From Streptomyces sp. L2 (GTDB lineage Bacteria; Actinomycetota; Actinomycetes; Streptomycetales; Streptomycetaceae): a stretch of 64,000 nucleotides of DNA. How positions within the stretch are numbered: position 1 is the stretch's first letter; each line of letters opens with the position of its first letter. Shown here piece after piece: positions 41,491 to 61,548 of this stretch. Where the stretch lies: positions 6,820,001-6,884,000 of the forward strand of contig NZ_QBDT01000001.1 of assembly GCF_004124325.1 (NCBI RefSeq), read 5' to 3'. Below the pieces are notes generated by a model. The model did not search any database and was not told the DNA's origin. It worked only from the letters and a program-made list of their open reading frames with translations. The position numbers and the translations under genes were made by a program.

Positions 41491-42162
41491 TTACGGTGCG
41501 GGACGACCGGGCACCGGGCCGCGACGCGGTGCGTCCGGCAGGAGACCGTGGTCGACCAGGGCCTGCCGGGTGGACCGGGACGAGGTGTGGTGAACGGCGC
41601 GACCGCCCAGCGCCAGGAGCGCGCGGACGTTCTCCTCCTTGTCGTCGACGAGTACCAGGTCGGGCACGGTGCGACCGGTCGCACGGGCGACGGCCTCGAA
41701 GAAGCGGGCGTCGGGTTTGCGGACCGCGAGATGGCACGAGGCGAAGACGTCCACGGCCGGCTCCTCGGGGATCAGACGCGTGGCGTCGGCTATCCACACC
41801 GGATAGTTGGAGCCGATGACGGTAGGGTGTGCGGCCGCGCAGTCACGCAGCAGCGCTCGCATCCCGCCGAGCCAGCGGTACCCCGCCCGCCGCAGCCGGT
41901 GGAACGTAGGCACGTCGACATCGACGCCGTGCGCGCGCAGACTGCCCCAGTAGGCGTCCTCGTCGATGTGGCCGCGTTCGAAGCGGTCGTAGACCTCCGG
42001 CGAGCGGGCTCGCTGGAATTCCTCGAAGGTGCAGCCGGCCGCCCGGGCGTAGGCGGTGCGGTAGGGATCGTGCAGCAACGTTCCCATGAGGTCGAACACG
42101 ACGAGCACGCCGGGCGGCGGGCCCGCCCGGCGTGAGGACGGGCCCGGGTGTGGCGGTGTCAC
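41491..42162 (-). CDS. HAD-superfamily hydrolase
   Basis: 223 residues from the GTG at 42162, which overlaps the P450 stop (GTGA). HAD motif I is FDLMGTLL (nucleophile Asp), motif II IGSNYPVW, motif III Lys in VRKPDARFF, motif IV VLVDDKEENV. The cap domain is short and helical. Last gene of the biosynthetic operon; a phosphatase acting on a phosphorylated intermediate is the simplest guess, alongside the RpiB-like and threonine-synthase-like enzymes. Confidence 0.88.
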   Translation of the reverse strand: MTPPHPGPSSRRAGPPPGVLVVFDLMGTLLHDPYRTAYARAAGCTFEEFQRARSPEVYDRFERGHIDEDAYWGSLRAHGVDVDVPTFHRLRRAGYRWLGGMRALLRDCAAAHPTVIGSNYPVWIADATRLIPEEPAVDVFASCHLAVRKPDARFFEAVARATGRTVPDLVLVDDKEENVRALLALGGRAVHHTSSRSTRQALVDHGLLPDAPRRGPVPGRPAP

Positions 42163-43379
42163 CGGACGTGGACCCGCAGGCCGGTGATCTGGTCGGCGCC
42201 GAGGTGGCCGGCCCGCCGCAGCGTGGCGTGGTCGGCTTCGACAAGGAAGTCGCCCTGGTCCAGTGCCTCGGTCAGGATCGCCACGGCGGCGCGGGCCAGC
42301 TGGGACCCGATGCACATGTGGGCTCCCCTGCCGAACGCGAGGTGCCGGTTGTCCCGGTCGCCGGGGCGGAAGGCGAGTGGGTCGGGGAAGAAGTCCTCGT
42401 CGAGGTTGGCGGAGCCCAGTACGAGGAGCACCCGCTGCCCGGTGCGGACCCGGTGGCCGGCGATGTCCAGTTCCGCGGTGGCGTAGCGGACGGCGAACCG
42501 GAACGGGCAGCTGAGTCTGACCGTCTCCTCGGTGTACTCCTCGGCGTTCCGCGCGTGGCCCGGCCCGCCGGCGGTACGGTCGGCGCCCGGGTCCGGGTAG
42601 CGCAGCAGAGCCTCGGTCAGCGTGGCGGCCAGGGGGTCCATCGTTCCGGTGATGATCTGGACGGCCACCGCCACGGCCACGGCCTCGCCGAGCCGGGGGT
42701 CGTCGGCGATCGAGCGGAGCGCCTTCGCGAGGAGCGTGCGGGGGGCGTCGAGAACCGTCTCCTGTACGGCGGCCCGCGCGCGGGCCATGGAGGCCCTGGC
42801 GTGGTGGGCGAGGTCGTCATCCAGGTGGGAGCCGGGTTTGGCCACATAGGCCATCAGCCCGTCGGTGGAGGCGGCGAGGGCGTCCATCTGCGCGAGGGTG
42901 GAGCCGAAGACCGACGCGAGCACGGCCAGGCAGTACGGTCGGCAGAACCGCTCGATCCAGTCGTCCGGTTCGCGCCTCTCGCGCAGATCGCCCAGCAGGC
43001 CGGCGCACGCCTCGCGCAGCCGGGGCATTACCGGCTGGAGCTGCTGGCGGCCGAACGCCGGCAGCAGACGGCGCCGTACCTCCGCGTGATGGCCGCCCCA
43101 GGCGCGGAAGAAGTCGATGACCGGACGGTGCAGTGCGATCTGACGGTCACTCAAGCCGGCCTGGACCAGGGGGTCGTGCTGGGGCATGTTGGTCAGCGCC
43201 GGATGCGTCAGCAGGTCACGGACGAGGGCGTAGGAGGTGACGACGAGGGCGCCCGTCCTCGGTTCCACCGATACCGCGTCCGCCGTCATCGTGTGCAGCG
43301 CGGCGCGGGGATCGGCCGCGGTGTAGTCCGCGAAGATCGGGTGTGTGGGGGCGTCCGGCCCGGTCAGGGCCCGCGTCAC
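42159..43379 (-). CDS. cytochrome P450
   Basis: 406 residues from the GTG at 43379, overlapping the upstream stop (GTGA). The heme loop FGRGAHMCIGSQLAR and the K-helix ExxR (EETVRL) are normal. The I-helix, usually AGxxT, reads ITGTMDPLA without the conserved acid-Thr pair at the expected place, a trait of some P450s acting on carrier-bound substrates or with unusual chemistry. Probably oxidises the assembly-line intermediate or product. Confidence 0.93.
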   Translation of the reverse strand: MTRALTGPDAPTHPIFADYTAADPRAALHTMTADAVSVEPRTGALVVTSYALVRDLLTHPALTNMPQHDPLVQAGLSDRQIALHRPVIDFFRAWGGHHAEVRRRLLPAFGRQQLQPVMPRLREACAGLLGDLRERREPDDWIERFCRPYCLAVLASVFGSTLAQMDALAASTDGLMAYVAKPGSHLDDDLAHHARASMARARAAVQETVLDAPRTLLAKALRSIADDPRLGEAVAVAVAVQIITGTMDPLAATLTEALLRYPDPGADRTAGGPGHARNAEEYTEETVRLSCPFRFAVRYATAELDIAGHRVRTGQRVLLVLGSANLDEDFFPDPLAFRPGDRDNRHLAFGRGAHMCIGSQLARAAVAILTEALDQGDFLVEADHATLRRAGHLGADQITGLRVHVR

Positions 43380-44563
43380 GAGCCGAGCCTCTCCGACACG
43401 CCGGGGCCGGCCGGTGCGGTGAACGGCCGGGAGCCGGAGACGACGACGGCGATCCTGGCGCCGGGGTCGAGCCGTGCCTTGAGCAGGCCGGCCAGCGAGA
43501 TGTAGGCGGACTTCTCGCGCGTGTGGTCGAGTTCGATGCCGGCGTCCGCCAGTATCTCGTCCACGACGGGCCGCAGCCCTTCGACGTCCTGCGCGCCGAC
43601 GGACCGCAGCTCGGTTCCCTCGGGCAGGTCCCGGCGCAACTGGGGCAGCGTCGCGACGGGGTTGGTGGACTGCAGGGTGGGCTCGTAGGGATCGTCGGGC
43701 AGCCGGAGGTCGTCCTCGCCGACCTCCTCGGCGCCGTTCTGCCAGGCCCAGGTGAGCGTGTCCGCGTCCGCCGGCTGGAAGAGCAGGTAGCGCCGCTCGG
43801 CGAGGACGCCCGAAGGGGTGTCCACGATGTCGCGCAGCCGCGAGAAGCCGACCTCGTACCCGAGCGGGCCGTAGCCGCCGGCGACCGTCTGCACGATGGT
43901 GTCGGTGTCCGGCACCGTCTCGTAGATGGCGGCGGCCAGGACGGATTTGCCCTCGAGTTTCCAGTCGAAGGGGGCCAGGTGCCGGCGTCCCGCTTCGGCG
44001 GCGGCCTTCTTCGCCAGCCCCGACAGTTCGGCGTAGGCGCAGTCCAGGGAGTAGACCGGCTGCTGGGGATCGGCCTCGACGTCCCCCAGCTTGTCGAGGT
44101 TGCGCTCGGGGACGTAGCCGGCGCAGGACACACCGGCCCGCTGGGCGTAGTGGCGGTAGGCCAGGGCGGTGTTGCCGGTCGAGTGGACCGAGACGTCGCG
44201 CAGGCCCAGTTGCTTGGCGGCCGCGAGCACGATGGCGGCTTCCAGGTCCTTGAAGGTGCCCGTGCCGAACCGGGTGCAGTCGATCAGGTGCACCTGGTCG
44301 ACACCGAGCCTCGACTCCATCAGTGTGCTGCGGATGACGCGAGGCCCGACCCCGTCGTCCAGCGCGGGCTCGTAGTCGACCGGGACGAGGTCCGGGTAGC
44401 GCCAGGGCAGGCCACGCTCCGGCGCGACGAGCCGGGCGAACGGCCCGGGCTCGGGAAGCCGCAGCGCGAGGGCGCCGCCGCAGCCGTCGCAGACGTAGCG
44501 GGCGAGTTCGTCGGCGGACGGGGTCCGGTCCTCGCAGGCGGGGCAGTACAGGCGGATGGTCAT
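43376..44563 (-). CDS. threonine synthase-like PLP-dependent enzyme
   Basis: 395 residues from the ATG at 44563 (AGGTG 6 nt before; a GTG at 44572 directly after the upstream stop is possible). An N-terminal zinc-ribbon-like part (CPACED, CDGCGG) precedes a fold-type II PLP domain. The lysine motif is GTFKDLEAAI (SFKD-like) and HSTGNTALAY is the phosphate/Asn loop. Housekeeping threonine synthase has SFKDRG; the changes suggest another phosphorylated or beta/gamma-substituted amino acid. Likely supplies a non-standard building block to the NRPS. Confidence 0.85.
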   Translation of the reverse strand: MTIRLYCPACEDRTPSADELARYVCDGCGGALALRLPEPGPFARLVAPERGLPWRYPDLVPVDYEPALDDGVGPRVIRSTLMESRLGVDQVHLIDCTRFGTGTFKDLEAAIVLAAAKQLGLRDVSVHSTGNTALAYRHYAQRAGVSCAGYVPERNLDKLGDVEADPQQPVYSLDCAYAELSGLAKKAAAEAGRRHLAPFDWKLEGKSVLAAAIYETVPDTDTIVQTVAGGYGPLGYEVGFSRLRDIVDTPSGVLAERRYLLFQPADADTLTWAWQNGAEEVGEDDLRLPDDPYEPTLQSTNPVATLPQLRRDLPEGTELRSVGAQDVEGLRPVVDEILADAGIELDHTREKSAYISLAGLLKARLDPGARIAVVVSGSRPFTAPAGPGVSERLGS

Positions 44564-44572
44564 GGAGTACAC

Positions 44573-45787
44573 CTACTTGTCTCGTAGTTTCGGGGTGTGG
44601 TCGCTGAAGTCGAGGGTCGCTCTGCGGACGCGGACGGCTTCCAGGTCCATCAGCCGCAGTCCCGGACAGATCCGGACGATGTCGTCCAGCAGGTCGAAGG
44701 AGGAGTTGGGGTGCCGGATCGCGTAGAGGACGAGGTTGCGGTCGCCCCACCAGTCCCCGCTCCGTTCGGTGTGCCGGATGATCCGGCGCAGGGCTTCGGC
44801 GTCGGTCCAGGGGTTCATGAGGGCGGCGTGCCGCACCCACCAGCTGCCTCCGTGCGGCGAGGCCAGCAGGACGGCCACGTCCCGGTGGGAGCGGGCGGTG
44901 AAGACCCGGAGCATGGTCTCCGTCTCCGAGCACCCCTCGCCGGCGGCCCAGGGGTCCGTCGTGTCCGGCGGCTCGGTGCCGCCGAGACCGCTGTCGCCGA
45001 GCAGTCCGTCCGACAGGCGGCGCAGGGTCGCGACCTCCGTCGCCGCGTGCTCGCGCAGCCACGGCAGCCGGTCGGTGAGCAGGCGGCGGGCACTGGACAG
45101 GTACAGGGAGGACAGCAGCGCGTAGACGGCCCTGTGGTCGTCGTAGGTGGCGCCCCCGCTCTCGCAGCGCCGGCGCAGGAGCATCGCCGCGGCGAAGGCG
45201 TCGGGTGCGCACGGGTCGGCCTCGCCGCCTGCGGCCAGTGCTGTCAGAGCGGCCGTGGTCGTCCGGTGACGGAGCCGTCCGTCGACCAGTGCCTCGCACT
45301 CGCCCAGCGCGGTCCAGCCACGGGTGCCCCCTAGACCGAACTTCTCGGGACGTTGCAGGTGCGGGCCGTGCACCCGGGGCAGGGCCGTGGCGGTTGCCAG
45401 GAGGTGGACGACCTCCCGGGCCCTGAGCGTCGCGTCACGCCACAGGGTACCGACGGCCTCCTGGAAGGCCGGCAGGAGAGCGGGGTCGCCGCCGACCGGC
45501 CGGCTGAACATCACCGCGTGCAGGTCGGTGGCGTTCGTCCGCGCCCAGGAGCGCAGCCGGGAGGCGTCCCCCGAGCAGGTGACCAGGTCGAGGTACCTGC
45601 CGCCGCCGAGGTCGACTTCGGGCAGTGGCGCGCCGGAGGGGTTCCAGCACATGAGGTCCAGGTCGCTGCGGGCCGTCATCTCCGCGCGGGCGGTGCCTCC
45701 CCAGGTGGCGATCACCACGTCGGGTACGGCGTCGGTGAGCGCCCGCACGACCGACGCGGCGTCCTGGCGGACGTCGGCCGCGATCAC
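44573..45787 (-). CDS. nucleotidyltransferase-fold protein (GlnD-like N-terminus)
   Basis: 404 residues from the GTG at 45787. Residues 25-50 hold a polymerase-beta-type motif, WGGTARAEMTARSDLDLM, with the GG and DxD-like acids of GlnD-type transferases. A helical middle region (110-260) and a C-terminal part with paired Trp and HEAT-like texture (WWVRHAALMNPWTDAEAL, WWGDRNLVLYAIRHP) follow; I do not recognise it. In a biosynthetic operon it may nucleotidylate a small molecule or carrier. Overlaps the SDR gene stop by 4 bp. Confidence 0.75.
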   Translation of the reverse strand: MIAADVRQDAASVVRALTDAVPDVVIATWGGTARAEMTARSDLDLMCWNPSGAPLPEVDLGGGRYLDLVTCSGDASRLRSWARTNATDLHAVMFSRPVGGDPALLPAFQEAVGTLWRDATLRAREVVHLLATATALPRVHGPHLQRPEKFGLGGTRGWTALGECEALVDGRLRHRTTTAALTALAAGGEADPCAPDAFAAAMLLRRRCESGGATYDDHRAVYALLSSLYLSSARRLLTDRLPWLREHAATEVATLRRLSDGLLGDSGLGGTEPPDTTDPWAAGEGCSETETMLRVFTARSHRDVAVLLASPHGGSWWVRHAALMNPWTDAEALRRIIRHTERSGDWWGDRNLVLYAIRHPNSSFDLLDDIVRICPGLRLMDLEAVRVRRATLDFSDHTPKLRDK

Positions 45788-46494
45788 CGGGCCGCTCCCA
45801 GGGTGCTGCCTCCGTCGTAGGTCAGGAGCTGACCGGTGAGGTGATGGGCGTGCGGGACCAGCCCGGCGAGGAAGTCCGCCAACTCCCCGGGGGTGACCAG
45901 ACGGCCGCCGGGACGTGCCGGGTCGGCGGGGGCGTGCGGGTACTGCCGGCGCACCCGTTCTTCGTTGCGGCTCACGGTGACGGTGCCCGGAAGCACCCCG
46001 ACGAGGCGGAGGCCCTCCGGTGCCCAGGCCGGCGCCAGGCTGCGGACCAGGCTCGCCACCGCGGCCTTCGTCGCGGCGTACAGCGGCTGCCGGGGGCGGG
46101 CCACCCGCGCGGCGTTGGAGGAGACGACGAGGCAGACACAGGTGCCGGGGCGGGGCGTTCGGTGCAGGACGTGCAGGACGTTGACGCAGCCGACGAAGTT
46201 GTCCCCGACGATCCGGTCGACGTCGTCCGGTTCCGCGTCCTCGACGGTCGCGGGGGAGACCGTGCCGAAGGCCAGCACCACGACGGCGGGCGGCCCCCAG
46301 CGCAGTACGGCGTCCCGGGCGGCGCTGGCGAGGGCCACGCGGTCCCGCACGTCGACCCGGTGGTGCGTGCCGGCCCGGCCGGGATCGTCGGCACGGTCGA
46401 AGGTGACGGTGCGGTACTCGCCGGCGAGCCGGTCCCGGACCGCCGCGCCGATGCCGCCGGTGCCGAAGACCCAGGCCGTGGGCGGGGCGGTCAT
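45784..46494 (-). CDS. short-chain dehydrogenase/reductase
   Basis: 236 residues from the ATG at 46494. The cofactor loop is FGTGGIGAAVRD, a variant of TGxxxGIG; the strand-end DRAD and DVRD suggest NAD(P) with an acidic discriminator. The catalytic block has Ser in VVSSNAA and Tyr-x-x-x-Lys in LYAATKAAV. Reduces or oxidises a carbonyl in the precursor or product. Coupled to neighbours by 4-bp overlaps on both sides. Confidence 0.92.
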   Translation of the reverse strand: MTAPPTAWVFGTGGIGAAVRDRLAGEYRTVTFDRADDPGRAGTHHRVDVRDRVALASAARDAVLRWGPPAVVVLAFGTVSPATVEDAEPDDVDRIVGDNFVGCVNVLHVLHRTPRPGTCVCLVVSSNAARVARPRQPLYAATKAAVASLVRSLAPAWAPEGLRLVGVLPGTVTVSRNEERVRRQYPHAPADPARPGGRLVTPGELADFLAGLVPHAHHLTGQLLTYDGGSTLGAAR

Positions 46495-46943
46495 CGCAGC
46501 GCTGCCGCGTGTTCGGCGAGGGCCTCGATGCGCTCGATCTTCGGCACCGAGCGGGCGGAGTCGAAGGAGTGGGTCAGCCAGACCTGCATCAGGGTCCTGG
46601 CGACGGCCGGCGGGGTGAGTTCCGCCCCCAGGGCCAGTACGTTGGCCGCGGAGTTGCGGCGCGCCTTCTCCACGCTGTACGTGTCGGTGCACCGAGCGGC
46701 CCGGATCCCTTGGACCTTGTTCGCCGTGATGCTCATACCGAGCCCGGTGCCACAGATCAGGACCCCCGAGTGGTAGCCGCCCCCGGACACCCGCAGCGCC
46801 GTCTCCCAGGCGATGTCGGGATAGTTCTCGGCGCCCGATCCCGGGGTGATCTCGTAGCCGTGACCGGCCTCTTGGAGTGTTTCGAGGACCGCCTGTGCCA
46901 ACTGCTCGCCCATGGGGTCGTATCCGACGACGATCTGCTTCAT
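46491..46943 (-). CDS. RpiB/LacAB-family sugar-phosphate isomerase-like protein
   Basis: 150 residues from the ATG at 46943, overlapping the PKS stop (ATGA). It has the RpiB core: VGYDPMGEQL, VLICGTGLGMSITANKVQGIRAA with the catalytic Cys, and SVEKARRNSAANVLALG. RpiB interconverts ribose-5-phosphate and ribulose-5-phosphate. The usual N-terminal DHAG motif is altered to YDPMG. Inside this operon it probably isomerises a pentose- or tetrose-phosphate used for a special precursor. Confidence 0.92.
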   Translation of the reverse strand: MKQIVVGYDPMGEQLAQAVLETLQEAGHGYEITPGSGAENYPDIAWETALRVSGGGYHSGVLICGTGLGMSITANKVQGIRAARCTDTYSVEKARRNSAANVLALGAELTPPAVARTLMQVWLTHSFDSARSVPKIERIEALAEHAAALR

Positions 46944-49900
46944 GGCGTACTCCTGTGACCGCGGGTAGGGGATGGGACGGGGGTGTCCGACGTGGGCCGG
47001 GGTGCGGCGGAGCGCACCACGGCGGCCATGTCGTCGAGGGTTTTCGCTTTGAGTACCTGGCGCAGCGGTACGTCGTGTCCGAACGCCGTGCGGATCCGGG
47101 CGGCGACACGGGTGGCCGCGAGGGAGTCCCCGCCCAGGTCGCGGAAGCGGTCCCGTGGACCGATGGGCTCGTGGCCGAGGACCTCGCTCCAGATGCCGGC
47201 GAGGATCCGGGTGGTGGCGTCGCCCTCGTGCCGTACCGTGCCGGCCGGCTCCGGTTCGCCGGTAGGTCCCGGGGGCGTCGACGGGGGCGGGGAGAGGTTC
47301 GGGGAAGGGGCCCGGCCGGCCCCCCCGGGGTCGGGATCGGGGGCGGCGTCCAGGTCGGCGGGGTGGGCCCAGGTGCGGTGGCGTTCGGCGAAGTCCGCGG
47401 CCATGACGAGGAGATGCGGCTCGGCGGGAGCCGCGAGCGTCCGCCGGTACGCCTCCAGGGCGTGCTCGACGGCGAGCTCGTGGGCCTCGCACGCGCCTTC
47501 GTCGTCCGTGTGCCAGCCGTCCCAGCCGAGACTCAGCCACCGTGTGTCGCCTTCGCGTGACAGTCGGGTGGCCAGGCAGTCCAGGTGGGCGTTGGCCGCG
47601 GCGTAGGGGCCGAGACCCAGGCCGCCGAGGACGGCCGAGGTGGAGGAGAAGAGGACGACCCGTCCGACGTCCCTGCCGCGGAGGGCCGCCACCAGGTTGT
47701 CGGCGCCGACCGTCTTGGGGCGCATGATCGCCTCGGCGCGGCTCCAGGAGGTCTCCGCGAGCACGGTGGTGGCGTCCTCGTGCGTGACGCCCGCCGCGTG
47801 GATCACCGAGTCCAGCCGCCCCCATCGCGCGGCCGCCGCGTCGAGGAGGCGTGCCAGGCTGCCGGGCCGGGTCACGTCGACGTGGGCCGTCTCGACCGTG
47901 CTGCCGGTGGCGCGGAGGTCGGTGACGGCATCGGGGTTCCCCGGGTCGCCGGCAGCGGTCAGGGAGCGGCTCGCCAGGAGGATCCGGGCGTTGCCGGGTC
48001 GGGCGAGTTCCCGGGCCAGCAGCAGCCCGAGCCGGCCCGCACCGCCCAGGATCACGTGGGTGGTGCCGTCGGCGGGCGGCGGGATGACCGGTGGGGCCTC
48101 CATCCGCTGGACGTCGGGCGTCCACAGGTACCGGCCACGCAGGGCGACCTGACCGGCGGCCACGCCGTCGGCGAGCCGGGCGAGCAGGGCCGCGGTCCAC
48201 GGTCGCCGGTGTGGTGCGCGGGTGCTGTCGTCGAGGTCGGCGTAGAGGGAGCGGGTGAGGGCGTCCTCCTGGCCGACGACGGTGACCAGGGCCGCCACGG
48301 CGGCTTGCGCCGGGTGGAGGTCCTCGTCCCCCGTGACGCAGAACGCTCCCGCGCCCACCGCGAACAGGGTGCCCGGCGACGCGGGGAACGCCGCCCGCCA
48401 CGCACGGTGGGCCGCCAACAAGGGCGCCGGGGCAGGGGATTGGTCGGAGCGGATGGGGGCGGCGTCCAGTGTCCAGCCGTAGGCCAGACGGGCGGCGCGC
48501 ACACCTTCGTCGGCCAGTACGGCGAACAGCCGCCGGTGATCCCCTTCCCGTGCGGGGTCGATCTCGTAGGTCCGCTCGCCGGTCCTGCGGAAGCCCGGGC
48601 CCGGGCGGACGGTCACGGCCGTACGGCCCCGCAGGGCGGCGAGGAGCAGCCCGTCGGCGTCCGCGTAGCAGATCCAGGTGTCCGCGTCCGGCCCGGGAAC
48701 GGGCCCGTCCGGTGGCAGGCTCGTCCGCGTCCACTGCCGTACCCCGACGGTGGCCGACCCCGTCCGGGCCCGCCGTGCCCCTTCGGCCGGGCCGGCCTTC
48801 ACGTGCCGCGGCGGGGTGGCGAGGCCGGTCGCATCGCCGGGTGCGTGCGCGGGCTCGTGCCAGTGCCGGTCACGCGCGAAGGGGTAGCCGGGGAGGGAGA
48901 CGGTGCGGCCGCGGCCGACGGCCCCGACCCGGTCCCAGTCCAGCGGGACCCCTGCCTGCCACAGCCGGCCCAGACCGTCGAGGAGCGTAGCGCGCTCGTG
49001 CGCCGCCGGGCCGGGACGGCCCGGCAGGAGCGTGGCACGGGCACCGGTCGCACCCCGGGCGGCCGCGAGACGGGTCAGGACCTGCCCGGCTCCGACCTCC
49101 ACGAGCGTCTGGTTCTGTCCGTCGTGCCGCAACTGGTGCTCCAGCGCGGCGCCGAAGAGGACCGGGGCCACGGCCTGGCGCGCCCAGTGGGCGGCCGTCG
49201 CCGCGTCGTCGCCGAGGGGCAGGCCGGTGACGGTAGAGACCAGGGTGAGACGCGGCGCCGACAGATCCAGTGTGCCGGCCAGACGCTCCAGTTCGTCCGC
49301 GGCCACCGCCATCGCCTCGGTGTGGAAGGCGCGCCGGGAGGCCAGCCCGAGCACCGCCCGGCCCTGCTCCCGGCACCACCGCGCGTACCGGGCCAGGGCG
49401 GCCGGTGGTCCGGCGACGACCGTGTCGTCGGGGCCGTTGACGGCGGCGACGGTGAGGCCGGAGGGCAGCTCGGCCCGTACCAGTGGCTCCGCGAGCCGGA
49501 CGGCCAGCATGGCACCGGGGGCACACTCCTCCATGGCCCGGCCGCGGACGGCCACGAAGCGCAGGGCGTCCCGCAGCGTGAACACGCCCGCCACCGTGGC
49601 CGCGGCGATCTCGCCCACGCTGTGCCCGATGACCGCCGTGGGCCGTACACCCCAGCGTTCCAGCGTCGCGGAAAGGGCGTACATGACGGTGAACAGCGCC
49701 GGCTGGGCGTACCGGGTGGAGGCCAGCAGCCGGCGGCCCGAGGCGTTCCCGTACAGGACGTTCCGGACGTCGTATCCGGTCAGCGGCTCCAGAATCGCCG
49801 CGCACGTGTCGACGACACGGCGGAACTCCGGTTCGTGGGAGTAGAGATGACGCCCCATGCGCGCGTACTGCACGCCTTGGCCCGGGAAGAGGAACACGGT

Positions 49901-52900
49901 GCCGTCCCGCTCCGTGACGGGTGCCTCGATCCAGCGGCTGCCGGGCTCGGTGAGCCGGTAGGCGCGGAACGGGAAGTGTCTGCGGCCGTTGCGCAGGGTG
50001 TGCGCGGCGTCGGCGAGCCGGGACGGTCCCGCGTTCTCCAGCGCGGCGTCGAGACGAGCGGTGACCGCGCCCAGCTGCGTCCGGGTCCGCGCCGAGGCGA
50101 GCAGCAGGTGGGGGCGGGGGCCCGCGGGGGTCGTGTCCTCGGCGGGCGGCTGTTCCAGCACCAGGTGCGCGTTGGTGCCGCCGACACCGAGTGAGGACAC
50201 GGCCGCCCGCCGGACCGAAGACCCCCACCGGCGCCTGCGTGCCGCCACCTTGAAGGGTGTGTGGGAGAGGCGAATACCCGGGTTGGCGCGGCGGAAGTTG
50301 ACCGTCGCCGGCACCACACCGGTACGGACGATCATCGCGGCCTTGATGAGCGACACGACACCCGCGACGGTGTCGGTGTGTCCGACGTTGCCCTTGACCG
50401 AGCCCAGGAGAATACGGCCGCGCGGCAGATCCGGTTCGAGGGAGTCGTAGGCCTCCGCGAGCGCGGTCACCTCCAGTGGGTCGCCGAGCGGGGTGGCCGT
50501 CGCGTGAGCCTCGACGTATCCGATCTCGCCGGGCGTGAGGGCAGCGTCGGTGAGTGCGGCGCGGACGGCGTCGGACTGTCCGCGCACACCCGGTGCCGAG
50601 AAGGCGACCTTGGCAGCGCCGTCGTTGTTGACGGCGCTGCCCCGGATGACGGCGTGGATCCGGTCGCCGTCGCGCAGGGCGTCACCGAGCCGTTTGAGAA
50701 CGACACAGCCCGCGCCTCCGGTGAACACGGTGCCCGCGGCCGCCGCGTCCAGGGGCCGGCAGTGGCCGTCCGGGGAGACCACGCCCCCCTGCTCGTACAG
50801 ATAGCCGGCGTTCTGGGGCACGCGCAGCGAGACCGCTCCGGCGAGCGCCGTACGGCATTCGCCCGCCCGCAGGCTCCGCACGGCCAGGTGGACGGCGACC
50901 AGCGATGTCGAACAGCCGGTCTGGACCGTGATGCTGGGTCCGGTGAGGTCGAGTTTGTAGGAGACCCGGGGTGCGAGGAAGTCCTTCTCGCTGGACACCA
51001 GAACCTGGAAGGCCTCCAGGGAGCCGCCGAGCAGTGGGGCGAGACCCGTGTGCGGATCGAGCCGGAACCGGTCGGGCAGCAGATTGTTCAGGAGGTAGGC
51101 GTTGTGGCCGCTGCCGGCGAACACCCCGATGGGCCCCTCGGCCCGGGCGGGGTCCGTCCCCGCGTCCTCGAACGCCTCCCAGCAGGTCTCCAGGAACACG
51201 CGGTGCTGAGGGTCGAGCAGCCGGGCGTCCGCGGCGCTGTAGCCGAAGAATCCCGCGTCGAAGCGGTCGTGCTCGGGTACGTCACCGTGCGCCGAGACGT
51301 ACGCCGGGCCATCCGTCGCCCCGACAGCCGCGCGTCCGGCATCGGTCGCGGGCGGGGTGATCAGCTCCGCCCCGGCCAGCAGGTGGTTCCAGAACGCCTC
51401 CGCGGTACGCGCCTGCGGCAGGCGGCAGGCCACCCCCACGATGGCGACCGGTTCGGTGCGACCGGCCGAGGGCACCGGCGTGCGGCCGGACGGGACGGGA
51501 CCGGGGCGAGCCTGAGCCTGAGACGCCGACGCCCGCCCGATGCGGTCGGCCTGGGCGGCCACGGTGGCGTGCCGGAAGTACTCGGTCACCGGCAGATCGA
51601 CGCCCAGCCGCCGCTTGACCATCGCACGCACCCGCATCAGGTGGAGCGAGTCGGCGCCCAGGTCCTGGAAGGTGGCGTCGGGCGTGATCCGGCGGATGCC
51701 CAGGATCTCCCGCCAGATGCCGGTCACCACGGCGAGGACCGAGCCGGAGCCGTCGACGCGGGTACGGCCGTCGTCGCACGGCTGCCCGGCGCGGCCGGCG
51801 TCTTCCGCGACGGGGCCTTCCGCTTCGGGGCCCTCCGCCTCGGTGTCGTCGGCGAGGGCGGCGGGGGCGGTCAGGGCGCGCCGGTCGATCTTGCCGCTCG
51901 GTGTGGTGGGCAGGGCGTCCGTCACGGTGAACGTGGTCGGCACCATGGTGGCGGGCAGCAACTGCTGGCAATGCAAGCGAAGTTCGGAGACGAGGTCGTC
52001 GGGCGCGTCGTGGCCGGGGACGACGAAGGCCGCGAGTCGCCTGTCGCCGGTGGCGCCGACCGGGGCGGTCACCGCCGCGGCGAGCACGTGCGGGTGGGTG
52101 AGGAGGGCGGACTCGACCTCGGCGGGTTCGACGCGATGGCCGCGAATCTTGACCTGGTCGTCGAGCCGTCCGTGGTAGCGGAAGGCGCCGTCCGCGCCGA
52201 GCGAGGCGACATCACCCGTGCGGTACAGGCGGACGCCGGGGAGCTGCCGCACCCACCCGGTGGGGAATCGTTCGGCCGTCAGTTCCGGCCGCCGTCCGTA
52301 GCCGAGCGCGAGCCCCGCGCCGCCCAGGCACAGTTCGCCACGCGCCCCCGGGGGAAGCAGCCGACCGCTGTCGTCGACCACGTACGCCACGCAGTTGGCC
52401 ACGGGACGCCCGATCGGCGGGTCCTCGTCCCCGGCACCGCGGTCCACGGTCCAGGAGAGCGCGTCGATCGTCGCCTCGGTGGGACCGTAGAGGTTCGTCA
52501 GCCGTGCGGGCGAGGCGGCGGTGAACCGGCGGGCCAGTTCCGCGTCCAGCCGCTCGCCGCCGACGAAGACCTCGCGCAGTCGCGGACAGGAGGCCAGGCC
52601 GCCCTCGTCGAGGAGGGCACGCAGCATGGTGGGGACCAACTGCACCACGGTGACACCCGATGCGCGCAGCCGCGCCAGAAGGCGGCCCGGGTCGCGGTGC
52701 TCGTCCTCCTCCGCGCACACCAGCGTGGCGCCGGCCGCGAGGGGCACGAAGAACTCCCAGACGGACGCGTCGAAGCTCACCGGTGTCTTCTGCAGCACCC
52801 GGTCACCCGGCCCGAAGGAGAACGCGGACCGCATCCAGAGCATGTGGTTGACGGCGGCCCGGTGAGGTACGACGACACCCTTGGGCCGTCCGGTGGAACC

Positions 52901-55130: not shown

Positions 55131-58100
55131 TCACCTGCTCGTGGACGGGTGCGATGACGCCGGCGCTCGCAGGTGGCGGGCGAACGCGTCGCCCAGGGCC
55201 TGCACGGTGTGCCGGTGATGGAGGTCGCGGCTGTACTGGAGTTCGGTCACGAGCCGTCCGGCGCGGACGTACACACGGATCTGCAGCACGGACCCGCGCT
55301 CCTCGCGCGGACTGAAACGGTCTGTGACGGCCTCGGGGGCAGGCTGCCACCCACCTGTCCCTGCCTCGGTGACGTCGTGCGGGCCGAGGTAGTTGAAGCT
55401 GATGTCCGGGCGGGGCAGGGCGCTCATGCGCTGCCGCTCGGCGTCGGTGCCGAGGCGCCGCAGCATGCCGTAGCCGTATCCGTGGTGCGGCACGGCGTCG
55501 AGCAGTTCGCCGACGGAGTGCGGCAGCGCGGTGCGCGAGGTGTCGCCGGGCCGCAGCACGAGGGGGTAGTCGATGGACAGCCACCCGATCGTGCCGTGCA
55601 GCACCGTTCCGGGGCGCAGGCCGTGCCGGCCGTGATGGAGGACCCGCACCGACAGCGCGGGCAGCCCGCACCATTCGTGGTACGCGGCGGCGAACGCGGT
55701 CAGCAGCGACTGCTGGGTCGTGACGCCGTCCTGCGGGCCGGGACGGAGCAGCGCGCGCGTGTGCTCGCGGCCCAGTACGTGCTCGACGCTGTCCGCCGTA
55801 CCGGCGAGGTTCGCACCGCTCGCGCGGTCGACGGGCAGAGGGGGCACCCCGGCGAGGTCCAGCGCCTCCCAGAACCCGGTCCCGCCGGTCAGCGCCGGAT
55901 CCGTCGCGGCCGCCGCCACCTCGTGCGCCCAGGAGGCGAACGTCAGCGACGGATGTGCCGGCGTCGGCTTCTCGGGGAGGCCGGCTCGGAGCCGTTCGTA
56001 GGCGTCGGTGAGTTCGTCCAGGAGGAGCCGGAAGGACCAGGCGTCCATCACCAGGTGGTGGGCCACCACCAGGACCCTGGGCGGCGCGGGGCGCGGCAGC
56101 CGTATGACCACCACCTTGACCAGCGGTCCGTCGTCGAGACGCAGCGTGCGCTGGTGCCGGCGCACCTCCGCGCGCACGGCGTCCTCGGCGCCCCGCGGCG
56201 TGCGGGGCAGGTCGGCGGTCACCAGGGTGACCCGCGGCCGGTCCGTCACGGTCTGCCGCCGGCGGCCGTCCTGCCGGGCGAAGGACAGCCGCAGGGCGTC
56301 GTGCCGCCCGGCGACCGTCCGCAGGGCCGCGTCGAGCAGGCCCGTGTCGAGGTTTCCGGCGACGTAGAGCCCGGCCAGGTTCGCCCAGTTGTGGTCCGGA
56401 CGGTGCCGGGCGAAGAAGTCGTGCTGCATGGGGAGCAGGGGAACAGTGGCGCCGGTGGCCGGGGCCGCCGGGGCCGTGTGTGCCGGCCGCCCCGTGGTGA
56501 CGGCGCGCGCGGCGATGGCGGCGAGGGTGTCGCCCCGGAGCAGTGCGGAGGCGGGCAACTCCAGGCCCTCGGCCCTGGCCCGGGCGACCACCCGGATCGC
56601 GGAGAGGGAGTTTCCGCCCAGTTCGTGGAAGGTGGAGCCTGGGGCGACGCGGGTGGTGCCCAGCACCTCCTGCCAGATACGGGCCAGGGCGTTGCCCGCG
56701 GTGTGGTCGGTGCCGGTGTTGTCGGCGTCGTGCGGTCGGCCGGTGTCGCCCCGGGCCGCGTCGTCGGTGGGGGTCTGCGCAGGCGGGGCGGGCAGGGCGC
56801 GCCGGTCGGTCTTGCCGTTCGGTGTCGTCGGCAATGCGTCGACGAGGGTGAACGAGGCCGGCACCATGACGGCGGGCAGGACCTGCCGCGCGTGACGTCG
56901 TATGCCGGGGACCGGGTCGTCGTCGGCGCCGCCGGCACGGCGGGCGTCGCGGGCGGGTACGACGAACGCGGCGAGCCGGGCCTCGCCGGTGGCGTCGCGG
57001 ACCGTGGTCACGGCGGCGGCGCGGACGTCCGGGTGAGCCAGCAGGGCGGCCTCGATCTCGGCCGGCTCGACGCGGTGTCCCCGCACTTTGACCTGGTCGT
57101 CGAGCCGTCCGTGGAAGCGAAAGGCGCCGTCGGGCCGGAGCGAGACGAGGTCGCCGGTGCGGTACAGGCGCAGGCCGGGGAGTTCGGGGACCCAGCCGGT
57201 GACGAAGCGTTCGGCCGTCAGCTCCGGCCGCCGCCAGTAGCCCAGGGCCAGTTGGACGCCCGCCAGGCACAGTTCACCGCGTACTCCGGGGGGCACCAAC
57301 CGGCCCCTGTCGTCCACGACGTACGCCGAGGAGTTGGCCACCGGGGGCCCGATCAGCGAGGCGTCGTCGACGCCCTCGACGCGGCGGGCATTGGACCAGA
57401 CGGTCGCCTCGGTCGGCCCGTAGGCGTTGTAGATCTCGCAGTCGAAGGCCTCGCGCAGGCTTCGCACGGTGTCGGCGGGCACCGGTTCACCGCCGATGAG
57501 CAGGTGCTTCAGGCCGCGCAGACGCCTTCGCCACGCGGGATCGGCGGCCAGGGCGGTGGCCAGCGTCGGTGTGCACTGCAGATGGGTGACGTGGCGCCCG
57601 CACAGTTCCTCGTCGACCGCCGCGGGATCATGGGGTGAGCCGAGCTGCACCTGGGCGCCGGTGGACAAGGGCCAGAACAGTTCCAGGAGGGCGATGTCGA
57701 ACGAGACGCTGGTGACGGAGTGGAAGGCGTCGCCGGGGCCGCATCCGATCAGGCGATCGAAGGCCCGCACGACGTTGACGGCGGCACGGTGGGGTACGAC
57801 GACGCCTTTGGGCTGTCCTGTCGATCCGGAGGTGTAGATCAGGTAGGCCGGGTCCTCGGGGCCCGCCGGCACGTGCACGGACACGGGTGCGGGTGCCTGC
57901 GTCGGCGCAGGCGCGGCGAGCGCCTCGACGGTTTCGAGCACCGAGACGCCGACGCCGAGTTCGTCCAGCCAGTCCAGCCGGGCCGCCGACCCGGGGTCGG
58001 TCAGCACGACCGAGGGCCGGCAGTCCGTGACCATGAACCGCAGCCGTGGCACCGGGTAGGTCAGGTCCAGCGGGACGTAGGCCGCGCCCGACGCGAGCAC

Positions 58101-59780
58101 CCCCAGCAGAGCCGCCACGAGTTCGGGTGAGCGTCCCATGGCGACCCCGACCACGTGGCCGCGGCCGACCCCGTGCGCCGCGAGTCGCCCGGCCACCGCG
58201 GCGGCGGCCGCGTCCAGCGTCGCGTACGGCACCGTACGGCCGTCTCCCACGATCGCGGCCGCGTCACCGGCCGCCTGTGCGCGGCGGCGCACCAGATCGT
58301 GCAGCCCGACCGCGTCGATCGCCATGACGGGGCCCTTGACCGAGTCGACGACGTCCCGGTCGGCCGCACCGAGCAACGGCAGGTCTCCCACCCGGCCGTC
58401 CACAGCCGTCACCGCTCCACGGGCCAGGGCGTCGACGGCGGCGATGACGCGGCGGGCGTCGTCGGGGCCGACCGCGCGGCTGTCGCGTTCGAGTTGGCCG
58501 GCGATGTGCGGCTCGGTGCGTTCCACGGCCAGGGTGAGGTCGAACTCGGCGGGGCGGGGCGGTCCGGGGATGCGGCGCGCCACGATGCCCGGGAGGTCCA
58601 GGGTGTGGTGCGGGACGTTCTGGAAGGCGAACAGCACGCTGAACAGGGCCGTGTTCGTCTGCTCGCGCAGGGATCCGGAGGCCGCGAGCACCCGGTCGCC
58701 CTCCAGCGGGAGGTGCGCCAACGCGTCGAAGTGTGCGCTCTCGACGCTCTCGGCCAGAGCCCGGAATGACATGTCGTCCCGCACGTCCACGGCGAGTGCG
58801 CTGGTGTCGAGGAACAGTCCGACGGTCCGCTCCTCCTCGTCCGTCCGGTTCGAGGTGGGGTAGCCGAGGACGACACGCGGCCTGCCGTGCAGCCGGGAGA
58901 GGGCCAGCGCCACCAGCGCGGCGGTCACCACGAACCGGGTGGTGTCGAGCAGCGCCGCCAGCCGGGTCACCGCCTCGGTCGCGGCGTCGCCGAGCGCGAA
59001 CGGCTCGGCGGCCAGGCGCGCGGGTCGATCGGTGGCGCCGGACACGACGTCGTGCCGGTCGAAGACGAAGGGCGCGTCCGGCCCAGCGGCCAGCAGGACG
59101 TCCGCCCAGTACGCGATGTTGCGCCGGCGGGCGGCCGGGTCGAGACGTCGCGCCTCGGCTTCGACGTGCGCCCGGTAGGAGGTGCGGGAGGCGACGAGGG
59201 CCGGCTCCGCGTGCCGGAGCGCGGGCGTGCCCGATCGTGCCGAGCGGTAGGCGGCCGAGAGGTCCTCCAGCAGCAGGGCGACGGACCAACCGTCGAACAC
59301 CAGGTGGTGTACGAGGACCAGTACGACGGTCGTGTTCGCGTCTTCCCGCAGGACGTGCACCCGCAGCAGGGGCGGCCGCCCGAGGTCGAACGGCTGCTCC
59401 GCCATGCGGCGCTGCCAGTCGGCGGTGAACGCCTCGCTCCCGGAACCGGTGGCGGTCTCCGCGTACGGCGCGCGGGTGTCCACCGTGAACGGGCAGCCCA
59501 TCGGGGGCCCGACCTCCTGGACGGGCCCTTCGTCGGTGAGCCGGAAACCGGTGCGCAGCGCCTCGTGCCGGGCGATCACCTCGTCGAAGGCGGCCTGCAG
59601 CGCGCTCAGGTCCAACGGGCCCGTGAGCCGGTGGGCCAAGGAGAGGGTGTAGGCGCCCGGGTCCTCGTGTGTCTGGGTGTGGAGCCAGATGGTGCGCTGT
59701 TCCACGGACAGCGGGAACGGGCGGGGCCTCGTCGCCGGGTACGGCTCGCGCGGGTCCGCGACCACGGGGACTTCGGTCAT
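55131..59780 (-). CDS. NRPS: C, A, PCP and a degenerate epimerisation-like domain
   Basis: 1549 residues from the ATG at 59780 (AAGGAG 6 nt before). Condensation domain about 20-440 with HHLVFDGWS; adenylation about 480-1000 (YTSGSTGQPKG near 648); PCP about 1020-1090 (LGGNSL); then an epimerisation-type domain about 1110-1540 (GWLSIDYPL, GYGMLRRLG, FNYLGPH). In it HHxxxDG is HHLVMDA and the EGHGRE glutamates are gone (LHHGRHG). The A code reads DILQLGAVW-K, close to glycine codes, so an inactive E domain would make sense. The product passes to, or comes from, the hybrid next to it. Confidence 0.95.
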   Translation of the reverse strand: MTEVPVVADPREPYPATRPRPFPLSVEQRTIWLHTQTHEDPGAYTLSLAHRLTGPLDLSALQAAFDEVIARHEALRTGFRLTDEGPVQEVGPPMGCPFTVDTRAPYAETATGSGSEAFTADWQRRMAEQPFDLGRPPLLRVHVLREDANTTVVLVLVHHLVFDGWSVALLLEDLSAAYRSARSGTPALRHAEPALVASRTSYRAHVEAEARRLDPAARRRNIAYWADVLLAAGPDAPFVFDRHDVVSGATDRPARLAAEPFALGDAATEAVTRLAALLDTTRFVVTAALVALALSRLHGRPRVVLGYPTSNRTDEEERTVGLFLDTSALAVDVRDDMSFRALAESVESAHFDALAHLPLEGDRVLAASGSLREQTNTALFSVLFAFQNVPHHTLDLPGIVARRIPGPPRPAEFDLTLAVERTEPHIAGQLERDSRAVGPDDARRVIAAVDALARGAVTAVDGRVGDLPLLGAADRDVVDSVKGPVMAIDAVGLHDLVRRRAQAAGDAAAIVGDGRTVPYATLDAAAAAVAGRLAAHGVGRGHVVGVAMGRSPELVAALLGVLASGAAYVPLDLTYPVPRLRFMVTDCRPSVVLTDPGSAARLDWLDELGVGVSVLETVEALAAPAPTQAPAPVSVHVPAGPEDPAYLIYTSGSTGQPKGVVVPHRAAVNVVRAFDRLIGCGPGDAFHSVTSVSFDIALLELFWPLSTGAQVQLGSPHDPAAVDEELCGRHVTHLQCTPTLATALAADPAWRRRLRGLKHLLIGGEPVPADTVRSLREAFDCEIYNAYGPTEATVWSNARRVEGVDDASLIGPPVANSSAYVVDDRGRLVPPGVRGELCLAGVQLALGYWRRPELTAERFVTGWVPELPGLRLYRTGDLVSLRPDGAFRFHGRLDDQVKVRGHRVEPAEIEAALLAHPDVRAAAVTTVRDATGEARLAAFVVPARDARRAGGADDDPVPGIRRHARQVLPAVMVPASFTLVDALPTTPNGKTDRRALPAPPAQTPTDDAARGDTGRPHDADNTGTDHTAGNALARIWQEVLGTTRVAPGSTFHELGGNSLSAIRVVARARAEGLELPASALLRGDTLAAIAARAVTTGRPAHTAPAAPATGATVPLLPMQHDFFARHRPDHNWANLAGLYVAGNLDTGLLDAALRTVAGRHDALRLSFARQDGRRRQTVTDRPRVTLVTADLPRTPRGAEDAVRAEVRRHQRTLRLDDGPLVKVVVIRLPRPAPPRVLVVAHHLVMDAWSFRLLLDELTDAYERLRAGLPEKPTPAHPSLTFASWAHEVAAAATDPALTGGTGFWEALDLAGVPPLPVDRASGANLAGTADSVEHVLGREHTRALLRPGPQDGVTTQQSLLTAFAAAYHEWCGLPALSVRVLHHGRHGLRPGTVLHGTIGWLSIDYPLVLRPGDTSRTALPHSVGELLDAVPHHGYGYGMLRRLGTDAERQRMSALPRPDISFNYLGPHDVTEAGTGGWQPAPEAVTDRFSPREERGSVLQIRVYVRAGRLVTELQYSRDLHHRHTVQALGDAFARHLRAPASSHPSTSR

Positions 59781-59891: not shown

Positions 59892-59903
59892 AGGTGCGCA
59901 GGG

Positions 59904-59990
59904 TCAGATGACCTCGTGCATGAAGAGGGAGCCGGTGACGGTCTCCAGGCCCTCGACGGTGGCCAGAACCTCGTCGATGATGTGCGCCAT
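59904..59990 (-). CDS. 28-residue peptide, possible ribosomal precursor or scaffold
   Basis: ATG at 59990, stop at 59904. A strong ribosome site AGAAGGAG lies 8-9 nt upstream, better than at several neighbouring genes. The peptide opens MAHIIDEVLATVEG and closes SLFMHEVI; it has five acidic residues, no Lys, Arg or Cys, and reads as an amphipathic helix followed by a short hydrophobic tail. It stands alone between an adenylating ligase gene and the NRPS, with strong hairpins on both sides. I know no family for it. It could be a RiPP-like precursor, a peptide scaffold, or a leader peptide. Confidence 0.6.
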   Translation of the reverse strand: MAHIIDEVLATVEGLETVTGSLFMHEVI

Positions 59991-60011
59991 GGTGCTTCTC
60001 CTTCTGTGAGG

Positions 60012-60055: not shown

Positions 60056-60135
60056 GTGATCCGTCCGGTGCCGACGGGGTCGGCGAACGGATCCTCCGGG
60101 CGGCCGCCCGGAAGTCTGTGGGGGTGTGGCGGGGC

Positions 60136-61548
60136 TCAGCGCACCGCGAACCCGGGCACCCGGGACCGGTCGCCGGTGAGGCGGACGTCGAGCACACAAC
60201 GGCCGCCTGCCACCAGCCGGGCCAGTTCGGGTGAGGATGTGAGGGCCGCCGCCTGCACGCGCCGGACCAGTTCCCCGGCCGCTTCGGGCAGCAGCGCCGG
60301 TGAGAAGCCCACGGCCGCCAGCAGGACCAGCCGCTGTGCGCCGCCGTCCGTCCCCGGCTCCAGCGTGCAGGAGGCCAGCGGGGCGGCTCCCGGGCTCTGG
60401 CTGAAGGCGGGGATCCGGCTGGCGAGGGGCACGCGGGCGATCTCGGGGATGCGTTCCAGCGCCTCCCGCAACGGGTAGGCCCGACAGGCCGGCAGCGGAT
60501 CACCGCCGCCTTCCACCACGGGGGTGCGGGCCGTGCGGCCGACGAGGATCACCGAGATCTCACCGGGTTCGCAGGGGGATTCGCGTCGCTCGACGAGATC
60601 CCCGGTCTCGTAGCGGACGAAGGGCTGGCACTGGGAGAAGGGGTGCAGCTCGGTCAGGACGAGCCGGCCCACTCCGCTGCCGACCGGGGTGTCGTCGGTG
60701 AGGGACAGCACCTCCGGGACGACGTGCGCGTCGAAGTGGAACAGGTCGCACGTGCCGCAGAGCGTCGCGCCGCCGATCACCTCCGACATGCTGTAGCGGT
60801 GCACGACCTGACCGGAGGGGGCCAGGGCGGACCGGATCGCCCTGCTCTGGGCACGGGAGAGGTAGTCCGCCACGCTGGTGACCCGCTGCACCCGGTCCGG
60901 TTCCAGCGGGCCGCCGTCCGCGACGGCGGCGGCCAGCAGCATCAGGTCGTCGGGCGGCCCGCTCACCTCGTACGCGCAGGTGTCGAGGTCGGGGAAGAGG
61001 CGGGGGGAGCGCAACAGGGCGACGGACCGGGCGACTTCGGATGCCGTGAGGACGCTGAGCGACATGCGCCGCTGGGTGCCGTCAGCGGCGCCCAGGGTTC
61101 CCCCGTGGTGCCGTGCGGTCAGGGTGGTGAAGTGGACAACGGGCCGGGCCGGTCGACCGGTCAGCTCCTGCGCCCTCGCGCTCAGCCCGGTGCGGAACTC
61201 GCCGAAGGCGGCGATCTCCTGGGCGCTGCGGTACCTCCTGACCGGAGTGCCGGTGGTGGTGCCCGTGCTGTGGATGAGGACGTCGGGGGAGCTGTCCGGG
61301 TGGAGCATCTCCTCGGTGTGGTGCGCCAGGTCGGCACGGGTGAGGACGGGCAGGCCGACCAGTCCGGCCACGGTCACCGGCTGTTCCGTACGGCCGGGCC
61401 AGCGGTCCCGGTAGAAGGGGACGCGGGCGGCGTGCTCGATAGTGCGGGGCAGCAGCTTGTCGCGCAGGGCCGTCTTGCGGCCGTGGGCCGGGGCTTCCCG
61501 GCCGGCCCGGCCGGCTGCGGCTTCGTCCGTGCTCGTGGGTGCGTTCAT
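60136..61548 (-). CDS. AMP-forming acyl/aryl ligase of the PaaK/CoF (phenylacetate-CoA ligase) type
   Basis: 470 residues from the ATG at 61548. The start has FYRDRWPG as in PaaK proteins; the phosphate loop is HSTGTTTGTPVRRYRS; a Cys-rich segment GGATLCGTCDLFHFD resembles the zinc or structural loop of CoF-type synthetases; YETGDLVERR is the A7-type Asp motif. It should activate a carboxylate as adenylate and load it on CoA or a carrier. As first gene of the operon it may supply the starter acyl unit, or act on the adjacent peptide. Confidence 0.88.
   Translation of the reverse strand: MNAPTSTDEAAAGRAGREAPAHGRKTALRDKLLPRTIEHAARVPFYRDRWPGRTEQPVTVAGLVGLPVLTRADLAHHTEEMLHPDSSPDVLIHSTGTTTGTPVRRYRSAQEIAAFGEFRTGLSARAQELTGRPARPVVHFTTLTARHHGGTLGAADGTQRRMSLSVLTASEVARSVALLRSPRLFPDLDTCAYEVSGPPDDLMLLAAAVADGGPLEPDRVQRVTSVADYLSRAQSRAIRSALAPSGQVVHRYSMSEVIGGATLCGTCDLFHFDAHVVPEVLSLTDDTPVGSGVGRLVLTELHPFSQCQPFVRYETGDLVERRESPCEPGEISVILVGRTARTPVVEGGGDPLPACRAYPLREALERIPEIARVPLASRIPAFSQSPGAAPLASCTLEPGTDGGAQRLVLLAAVGFSPALLPEAAGELVRRVQAAALTSSPELARLVAGGRCVLDVRLTGDRSRVPGFAVR

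Follow-up and report, generated by a model that had tools for sequence, protein, structure and literature searches.

In a 64,000-nucleotide stretch of the Streptomyces sp. L2 genome (hereafter the window; C1:6820001-6884000 of an 8.07-Mb genome in two contigs, with 51 AMP-binding matches genome-wide), we analysed a biosynthetic gene cluster that combines formyltransferase (FT), non-ribosomal peptide synthetase (NRPS) and polyketide synthase (PKS) domains with a set of sugar-phosphate and pyridoxal-phosphate (PLP) enzyme genes. The cluster is real and conserved, and our analyses support, at the level of a gene unit, the idea that it harbours a precursor cassette, and make that idea more precise. 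We consider it rather probable that this is the dedicated cluster of a small conserved family, in which a formyl-Gln/ketide/Gly chain would be combined with a sugar-phosphate-derived unit supplied by four enzymes, namely a non-canonical RpiB-type isomerase, a short-chain dehydrogenase/reductase (SDR), a nucleotidyltransferase (NT) and a PALP-family enzyme. The core running from the FT-containing protein to a HAD-family hydrolase is co-linear across three genera, which is more than chance.

Genes were called by frame-specific GC analysis and inspection of translations, and families were assigned using Pfam and NCBIfam cut-offs. Nine genes and one mini-open reading frame (ORF) occupy the minus strand from 61548 down to 41491, as follows.
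60136..61548, minus strand: PaaK-like adenylating ligase of 470 residues (weak NCBIfam match)
59904..59990, minus strand: 28-residue ORF, MAHIIDEVLATVEGLETVTGSLFMHEVI, with a C-terminal -VI and a ribosome site, possibly the precursor of a JmjC-linked ribosomally synthesized and post-translationally modified peptide (RiPP)
55131..59780, minus strand: NRPS of 1,549 residues, with condensation (C), adenylation (A), peptidyl carrier (PCP) and altered epimerisation-type (E) domains (Pfam, and PDB sequence matches for the last domain)
46940..55120, minus strand: FT-A-PCP-KS-AT-KR-ACP protein of 2,726 residues, the last four being ketosynthase, acyltransferase, ketoreductase and acyl carrier domains (Pfam)
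46491..46943, minus strand: RpiB/LacAB-family isomerase (Pfam LacAB_rpiB)
45784..46494, minus strand: SDR oxidoreductase (Pfam SDR)
44573..45787, minus strand: Pol-beta-type NT of 404 residues (motifs and a weak fold match; no Pfam match)
43376..44563, minus strand: PALP enzyme with two N-terminal Cys pairs (Pfam PALP; alternative GTG start at 44572)
42159..43379, minus strand: cytochrome P450 of 406 residues (Pfam P450)
41491..42162, minus strand: HAD-IA hydrolase of 223 residues (under the Pfam cut-off, over the NCBIfam HAD-IA cut-off)

With the start codons that we chose, five of the six junctions from the FT-protein to the HAD gene are 4-bp ATGA or GTGA overlaps (FT-protein/RpiB, RpiB/SDR, SDR/NT, PALP/P450 and P450/HAD), and NT and PALP do not overlap. 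These tight junctions, the domain order and the co-linear relatives described below bear out the proposal of an earlier note, made from the DNA letters alone, that a single operon-like run with FT-NRPS-PKS logic is present. All the genes that it named are there with coding signal, and most have family matches. The interval it gave, 42159..61548, overlooked the 28-residue ORF (59990-59904) and stopped just short of the HAD gene (41491-42162), which it had counted in the operon.

To collect relatives, we searched a collection of named genomes with an alignment of 34 of 48 PALP homologues, which picked out 14 loci. In Actinoplanes rectilineatus NRRL B-16090 (L028), seven genes occur in identical order, with 61% (FT-protein), 76% (RpiB), 74% (SDR), 60% (NT), 78% (PALP), 67% (P450) and 64% (HAD) identity to the window proteins, and at the edge of this locus the final 36 residues of the first NRPS protein (C-A-PCP-E) also match. 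Kitasatospora acidiphila (genome G828, so identified because its PALP is identical to K. acidiphila P0004) has the same seven genes in order together with a whole C-A-PCP-E protein; identities are 68% for RpiB, 61% for SDR, 53% for NT, 72% for PALP, 60% for P450, 62% for HAD and 47-70% for the NRPS pieces. A Pseudonocardia locus (L029) has the PALP gene alone (47% identity), with no further match to the window genes.

The distribution of PALP was examined in genome samples that overlap one another. Within the window's genus, 22 of 295 genomes have a match at E<=1e-10, and among these only the genome itself and G065 (36% identity) lie beyond 1e-50. At E<=1e-30, matches were present in three of 297 genomes of the family (the genome itself, G828 and G876) and in seven of 394 genomes of the class including its own, the six others being partial matches at approximately 3-6e-31. 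Among 70 genomes of the genus of G828, only G828 itself matched at E<=1e-40. No relative was found in viral contigs scanned with the PALP alignment, and a tblastn search of plasmids returned nine records, haloarchaeal by name and 25-30% identical, six of which are annotated as threonine synthase.

We then searched 5.8 billion proteins for PALP and NT homologues, scoring 8,000 candidates for each and counting the window proteins in the totals. This gave 48 PALP matches at E<=1e-15, including the fragmentary P0048, and 18 NT matches at E<=1e-5. Homologues of both enzymes are rare as judged from these searches, and often lie on a common contig: eight of the 18 NT homologues, own included, are on a contig that, judged by its length, also holds a PALP homologue. 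Seven of these pairs, again including the window's, were recognized from contigs of exactly equal size, and the eighth is on the 120,140-base contig of the Actinoplanes locus. The SDR, NT and PALP trio was also found at two loci from metagenome-assembled genomes (MAGs) of two other phyla. The gene order is SDR-NT-PALP-RPE-like in a Nomurabacteria MAG (L030) and NT-PALP-RPE-like-SDR in a delta-proteobacterium MAG (L031), a ribulose-phosphate-epimerase (RPE)-like gene thus taking the place of RpiB. The RPE-like proteins clear the Pfam Ribul_P_3_epim cut-off but fall below the RPE equivalog cut-off, and the SDRs of these cassettes are 29-31% identical to that of the window, with motifs in common. 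The recurrence of this trio in MAGs of other phyla supports the view that the precursor cassette, whose chemistry is predicted, is a gene unit, and a genuine evolutionary one. This gene-neighbourhood search, which the earlier note had called for, therefore upholds a core co-linear in Actinoplanes and Kitasatospora and a trio shared with two MAGs, but it trims the proposed cassette, as neither L030 nor L031 showed a HAD gene next to the trio and RpiB is replaced there.

Two further types of PALP locus were observed. In G065 and G876, both of the window's genus and with PALPs 35-36% identical to that of the window, PALP adjoins NRPS or AMP-ligase genes together with a gene of TIM-barrel-like type (judged by eye, its Pfam match being under the cut-off; L024:12784-17607 and L053/L054 of G876). 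No NT or SDR match was found at these loci, which maybe represent another type of cluster that employs a PALP of this family. Separately, the 234-residue P0048 of Actinomycetospora cinnamomea joins part of a carrier protein to part of a PALP, with 71% identity over 18% of the window PALP, and is perhaps a decayed or rearranged copy of the cluster.

The isomerase shares the fold family and catalytic Cys of RpiB and D-erythrulose-4-phosphate isomerases, the Cys being kept as ICGTG or MCGTG in all three clusters, and it clears the RpiB/LacA/LacB superfamily cut-off only. It departs from these enzymes in scoring under both curated RpiB cut-offs (107.8 versus 138.65 and 124.7 versus 135) and under that for erythrulose-4-phosphate isomerase, and in having GYDPMG in place of the GCDHVG of E. 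coli RpiB. PMC4882579 names His102 and His138 as the ring-opening histidines of the T. cruzi enzyme. From an alignment with positions matched by eye, Arg and Ser replace both of them in all three clusters. Since both ring-opening histidines are replaced, an open-chain substrate such as tetrose phosphate is more likely than ribose-5-phosphate. We accordingly discarded the identification of this protein as an ordinary ribose-5-phosphate isomerase.

The NT has Asp residues at positions 42, 44 and 67 that are invariant across an 18-row alignment and that we take to be the catalytic carboxylates of the Pol-beta NTase superfamily; the mean predicted local distance difference test (pLDDT) score of its model is 88.7. 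The PALP model has a mean pLDDT of 94.1, and its nearest structural neighbour is the cysteate synthase CapA2 (E 6.8e-18, template modelling (TM) score 0.77), threonine synthases coming next. Cysteate and threonine synthases use phosphorylated amino acids. The window PALP shares with these fold type II PLP enzymes the fold and the PLP-lysine motif, but it is 17-22% identical to the cysteate and threonine synthases listed among its fold matches and has conserved motifs of its own, EPTLQSTNP and EKSxxIS.

Pfam delineates FT, A, PCP, KS, AT, KR and ACP domains in the 2,726-residue protein, and C, A and PCP domains followed by a second condensation-fold domain in the 1,549-residue protein. Active-site motifs are present, including HHLVFDG in C, GGNSL, GADSL and GGDSL in the carriers, CSTSL in KS and GHSVGE in AT, so that this is a hybrid NRPS-PKS cluster with C, A, carrier, KS and AT domains. 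By eye, the FT domain, located ahead of an A domain, harbours INYHDSLLP and DLDAGD, with the residues N, H and D that are presumably catalytic for formyl transfer, and the Ser/Tyr/Lys residues of KR are in place, as is an AFH motif in AT, which we take to denote a malonyl-type domain. The FT-A-PCP start and the FT catalytic residues are common with the LgrA-type formylating initiation of linear gramicidin, from which the window protein differs by the fusion of FT-A-PCP to KS-AT-KR-ACP and by a Gln code. Beyond the cluster family, the closest FT domains among the matches listed show 43-44% identity.

The last domain of the 1,549-residue protein matches, among PDB sequences, the PvdL, TycB, BacC, TycA and GrsA chains, in regions that we take to be E domains. 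Pfam names it Condensation, but as its best PDB sequence matches are epimerisation domains, a C-A-PCP-C organization was set aside for this protein. A-domain codes were taken from the motif register, not from structure. That of the FT module, DAWQFGLID, is the same in the Actinoplanes protein and identical to the nine-position Gln code in the portion of Table 2 of PMC2866473 that lists it. The code of the 1,549-residue protein, DILQLGAVW, is two or three substitutions away from each of two published Gly codes, DILQLGMIWK and DILQVGLIWK, as they appear in the relevant excerpts of PMC12283262 and PMC4169593, respectively. Gly is the best guess for this second A domain owing to that closeness, and the E-type domain is unlikely to epimerise given the Gly code of its module.

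The predicted chain is N-formyl-Gln, one reduced malonyl unit and Gly. In the scheme that we favour, the FT-protein would start with N-formyl-Gln or a near analogue, add one malonyl unit and reduce it to a beta-hydroxy acid, and the 1,549-residue NRPS protein would add Gly. In parallel, the RpiB-type enzyme would isomerise an acyclic sugar phosphate, most likely a tetrose phosphate; the intermediate would be oxidised or reduced and NT would place a nucleotide on an intermediate. PALP would carry out a replacement at the beta or gamma position, like that of the cysteate or threonine synthases, to give an unusual amino acid or amine. This unit would be built into the chain or attached to it, P450 and HAD would finish the product, and a divergent ABC-2 transporter would export it. 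The genes present, their order, their co-linearity across three genera, the succession of domains and the active-site motifs are direct observations, whereas the substrates, the order of steps, the point of incorporation and export are what we infer from them. The earlier note foresaw an unusual amino acid and a small formylated or formyl-derived peptide-polyketide; the FT-NRPS-PKS logic agrees with the latter, but the A-domain codes do not correspond to an exotic building block.

Several observations weigh against this scheme. Neither Gln nor Gly, as read from the codes, is an exotic amino acid. An E-type domain after a Gly-coded module is hard to read, all the more so with the EGHGRE motif gone: both the window and K. 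acidiphila have HHGRHG instead, HHxxxD being kept. No thioesterase (TE), reductase (R) or true terminal C domain was found among the Pfam matches of either assembly-line protein. The K. acidiphila NRPS genes are broken across several frames in the assembly. Among the matches listed from a search with the FT-domain protein, capped at 8,000 candidates, the Actinoplanes and Kitasatospora orthologues did not appear, and that search gives no family count. On the cassette side, NT is matched in L030 and L031 over part of the protein (144 and 323 aligned positions) at approximately 25% identity. A Foldseek search with the NT model gave no match at E<=1e-3, the best being the weak match to ANT(4') (E 3e-3, TM approximately 0.33 by query), and a glutamine synthetase adenylyltransferase was also matched at E 0.11. 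Finally, PALP passes Pfam's cut-off for the broad PALP family but remains far under every NCBIfam cut-off matched, scoring 23.5 versus 167.1 (thrC) and 54.2 versus 303 for threonine synthase, and 28.9 versus 324.9 for cysteate synthase even though CapA2 is its best fold match. Among the entries listed by keyword searches of the open-access literature, no matching cluster, compound or known product was found, in line with the inability of the earlier note to connect the gene set with a known compound.

The following genes lie on the other side of the ligase gene, divergent from the cluster or past the window end.
61964..63214, plus strand: divergent ABC transporter ATPase (start uncertain)
63052..63981, plus strand: ABC-2 membrane protein (start uncertain)
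genome C1:6884052-6884756: second ABC-2 protein, past the window end
genome C1:6884883-6885851: JmjC (JmjC_2) gene, 0.9 kb past the window end, after the ABC-2 genes
The PaaK-like ligase has no Pfam match, and its best NCBIfam match is the DVU_1553-type AMP ligase (57.8 bits versus a cut-off of 300). The label 'PF00501 acyl-CoA ligase' for 60136-61548 was rejected in favour of PaaK-like, as a PF00501 search of the genome gives no match there. Although an acyl ligase had been placed in the cluster from the outset, this gene lies outside the conserved core: no match to it was found in the K. acidiphila stretch, and it belongs to a set common with genome G014, where relatives of PaaK (47-49% identity), the ABC-2 proteins (59 and 55%) and JmjC (54%) are present. 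G014 has no PALP match at 1e-10 and no FT match at 1e-30; the PaaK, ABC-2 and JmjC genes therefore seem to form a module distinct from the FT core. The G014 set spans two contigs (L068 and L089) joined by inference. Its further members include a class-II tRNA-synthetase-like protein and an S66 peptidase as well as, by eye, a carbamoyltransferase-like gene, and a mycofactocin-like set (by eye) comes next. A urease alpha subunit gene was noted at 32612-34333 of the window (plus strand), distant from the cluster.

Other explanations were considered. The RpiB and SDR proteins might be ordinary pentose-phosphate or NAD enzymes and NT a resistance-type modifying enzyme, with no joint pathway. RpiB homologues are common, and the best fold match of NT, albeit weak, is the aminoglycoside nucleotidyltransferase ANT(4'). 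We regard this as quite improbable, in view of the set being kept as a block in three genera, of SDR, NT and PALP being found together in two other phyla and of the conservation of the non-canonical RpiB residues. It is also conceivable, if rather unlikely, that the product or the cassette-derived part mimics aspartate or aspartyl-adenylate and thereby attacks aspartyl-tRNA synthetase (AspRS), an extra AspRS conferring self-resistance. In K. acidiphila, an AspRS gene is located 62 bases downstream of HAD on the same strand (L051:7502-9112, minus). Its product is 67-68% identical to the AspRSs of G000, G065 and G876, as opposed to 41-42% for the other AspRS of K. acidiphila, and in all five other genomes of that genus the sole AspRS match (E<=1e-60) is of the 42-43% type. 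In the L031 MAG, the cassette is beside a run of aspartate-handling genes (L031:452-7762) for AspRS, L-aspartate oxidase (NadB) and aspartate aminotransferase, each over its curated cut-off, and for an asparaginase-like protein under its cut-off; a weak cystathionine-lyase-like gene is found in the same run. However, the window genome has a single AspRS gene, far from the cluster, and no AspRS turned up in direct searches of the window extended by 20 kb or of L028, L029 and L030. These observations would be reconciled if the window's genus had a naturally insensitive AspRS type, so that only Kitasatospora would need an extra copy. The extra K. acidiphila AspRS is frameshifted ahead of the last conserved motif, which resumes in another frame; as the NRPS genes of that assembly are also split over frames, the frameshift may reflect a sequencing error or decay. 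No altered active-site residue was noticed in it by eye. An extra AspRS beside one cluster and a formylated N-terminus are common with Microcin C and other products that target tRNA synthetases, from which the window system differs in being nonribosomal, in having no AspRS in its cluster and in that the target is putative.

The remaining alternative is a RiPP/NRPS-PKS hybrid in which the 28-residue ORF would encode a ribosomal precursor, modified by JmjC near its C-terminal -VI and joined by the PaaK-like ligase to the NRPS-PKS acid. Pheganomycin-like logic is the model for such ligase-joined peptide hybrids, and a small ORF and a ligase beside genes for a nonproteinogenic precursor are indeed common to both systems, although the window has a PaaK-like enzyme, as judged from its sequence, where the pheganomycin type has a known peptide ligase. 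The 28-residue ORF lies between the ligase and NRPS genes, with a ribosome site and high GC content at third codon positions, and a JmjC gene occurs near both FT clusters with a readable upstream flank, namely in the window flank and in K. acidiphila, where the homologue is immediately upstream of the NRPS (57-58% identity in two pieces). The HxD...H iron ligands of JmjC are present by eye, with a small -VI ORF, a predicted peptide, nearby. JmjC homologues were identified in 19 of 246 genomes of the window's genus, own included. At the 17 other JmjC loci of this genus (leaving out G014, scanned separately), a small ORF ending in -VI or -CI was found in 11 cases with a strict filter and 12 with a loose one, within approximately 5 kb of JmjC_2 as for the window ORF at 59904-59990 (minus): L090:10238-10333, L091:8062-8145, L094-L097, L100 and L102-L106. 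Such ORFs make up 11 of 99 small ORFs versus 0 of 61 in the background with the strict filter (Fisher p 0.007), and 14 of 693 versus 0 of 498 with the loose one (Fisher p 0.0006), the background being six stretches without JmjC match. These p-values are generous, because the ending was picked after the first six cases (the window, K. acidiphila, G201, G241, G019 and G060, four of which are within the 12) and because several of the peptides are homologous to one another and so not independent, five loci having ...PDVI or LDVI, two HAWVLHVI and two GGLEVI. Moreover, one of the 14 loose matches looks spurious and two are identical copies, and neither the other five loci (L092, L093, L098, L099 and L101) nor G014 have such an ORF. 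The K. acidiphila peptide is encoded on the strand opposite to the cluster, together with a C39 transporter set; G201 has such a set without an FT core, and the peptide may therefore belong to a neighbouring cluster. G201 (L090:8945-17610) and K. acidiphila (L051+L052 reversed, 5310-12393) share JmjC, the mini-ORF, a C39 ABC transporter, a condensation-like protein and an AMP ligase; the last three are 54-62% identical and adjoin the FT cluster in K. acidiphila only. Ligases and transporters are not the same in the two FT clusters. A ribosomal-peptide part is thus possible, given the JmjC gene and the mini-ORFs near 12 of 17 related JmjC genes, but we hold the hybrid as a whole to be unlikely. 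The JmjC-linked -VI/-CI mini-ORFs, a grouping of our own, possibly form a RiPP family; some have double-Gly-like leaders, with cores as short as LEVI. That all these elements would come together, in a hybrid of N-formyl-Gln/ketide/Gly, an amino acid derived from tetrose phosphate by a new four-enzyme pathway and a JmjC-modified ribosomal peptide, acting on AspRS, seems to us very doubtful.

The formyl-Gln/ketide/Gly chain with a cassette-derived unit is the reading that we retain, and its compact cassette, with four enzymes in a rare actinobacterial cluster and three of them, the isomerase excepted, in the MAGs from unrelated phyla, is well suited to the search for a new sugar-phosphate-to-amino-acid route. 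The duplicated AspRS of one relative is a testable target, and the JmjC-linked -VI/-CI mini-ORFs, which may represent a group of ribosomal peptides, deserve a closer look. If the proposal is true, the cassette would represent a new biosynthetic route common to at least three phyla, even without a RiPP hybrid.

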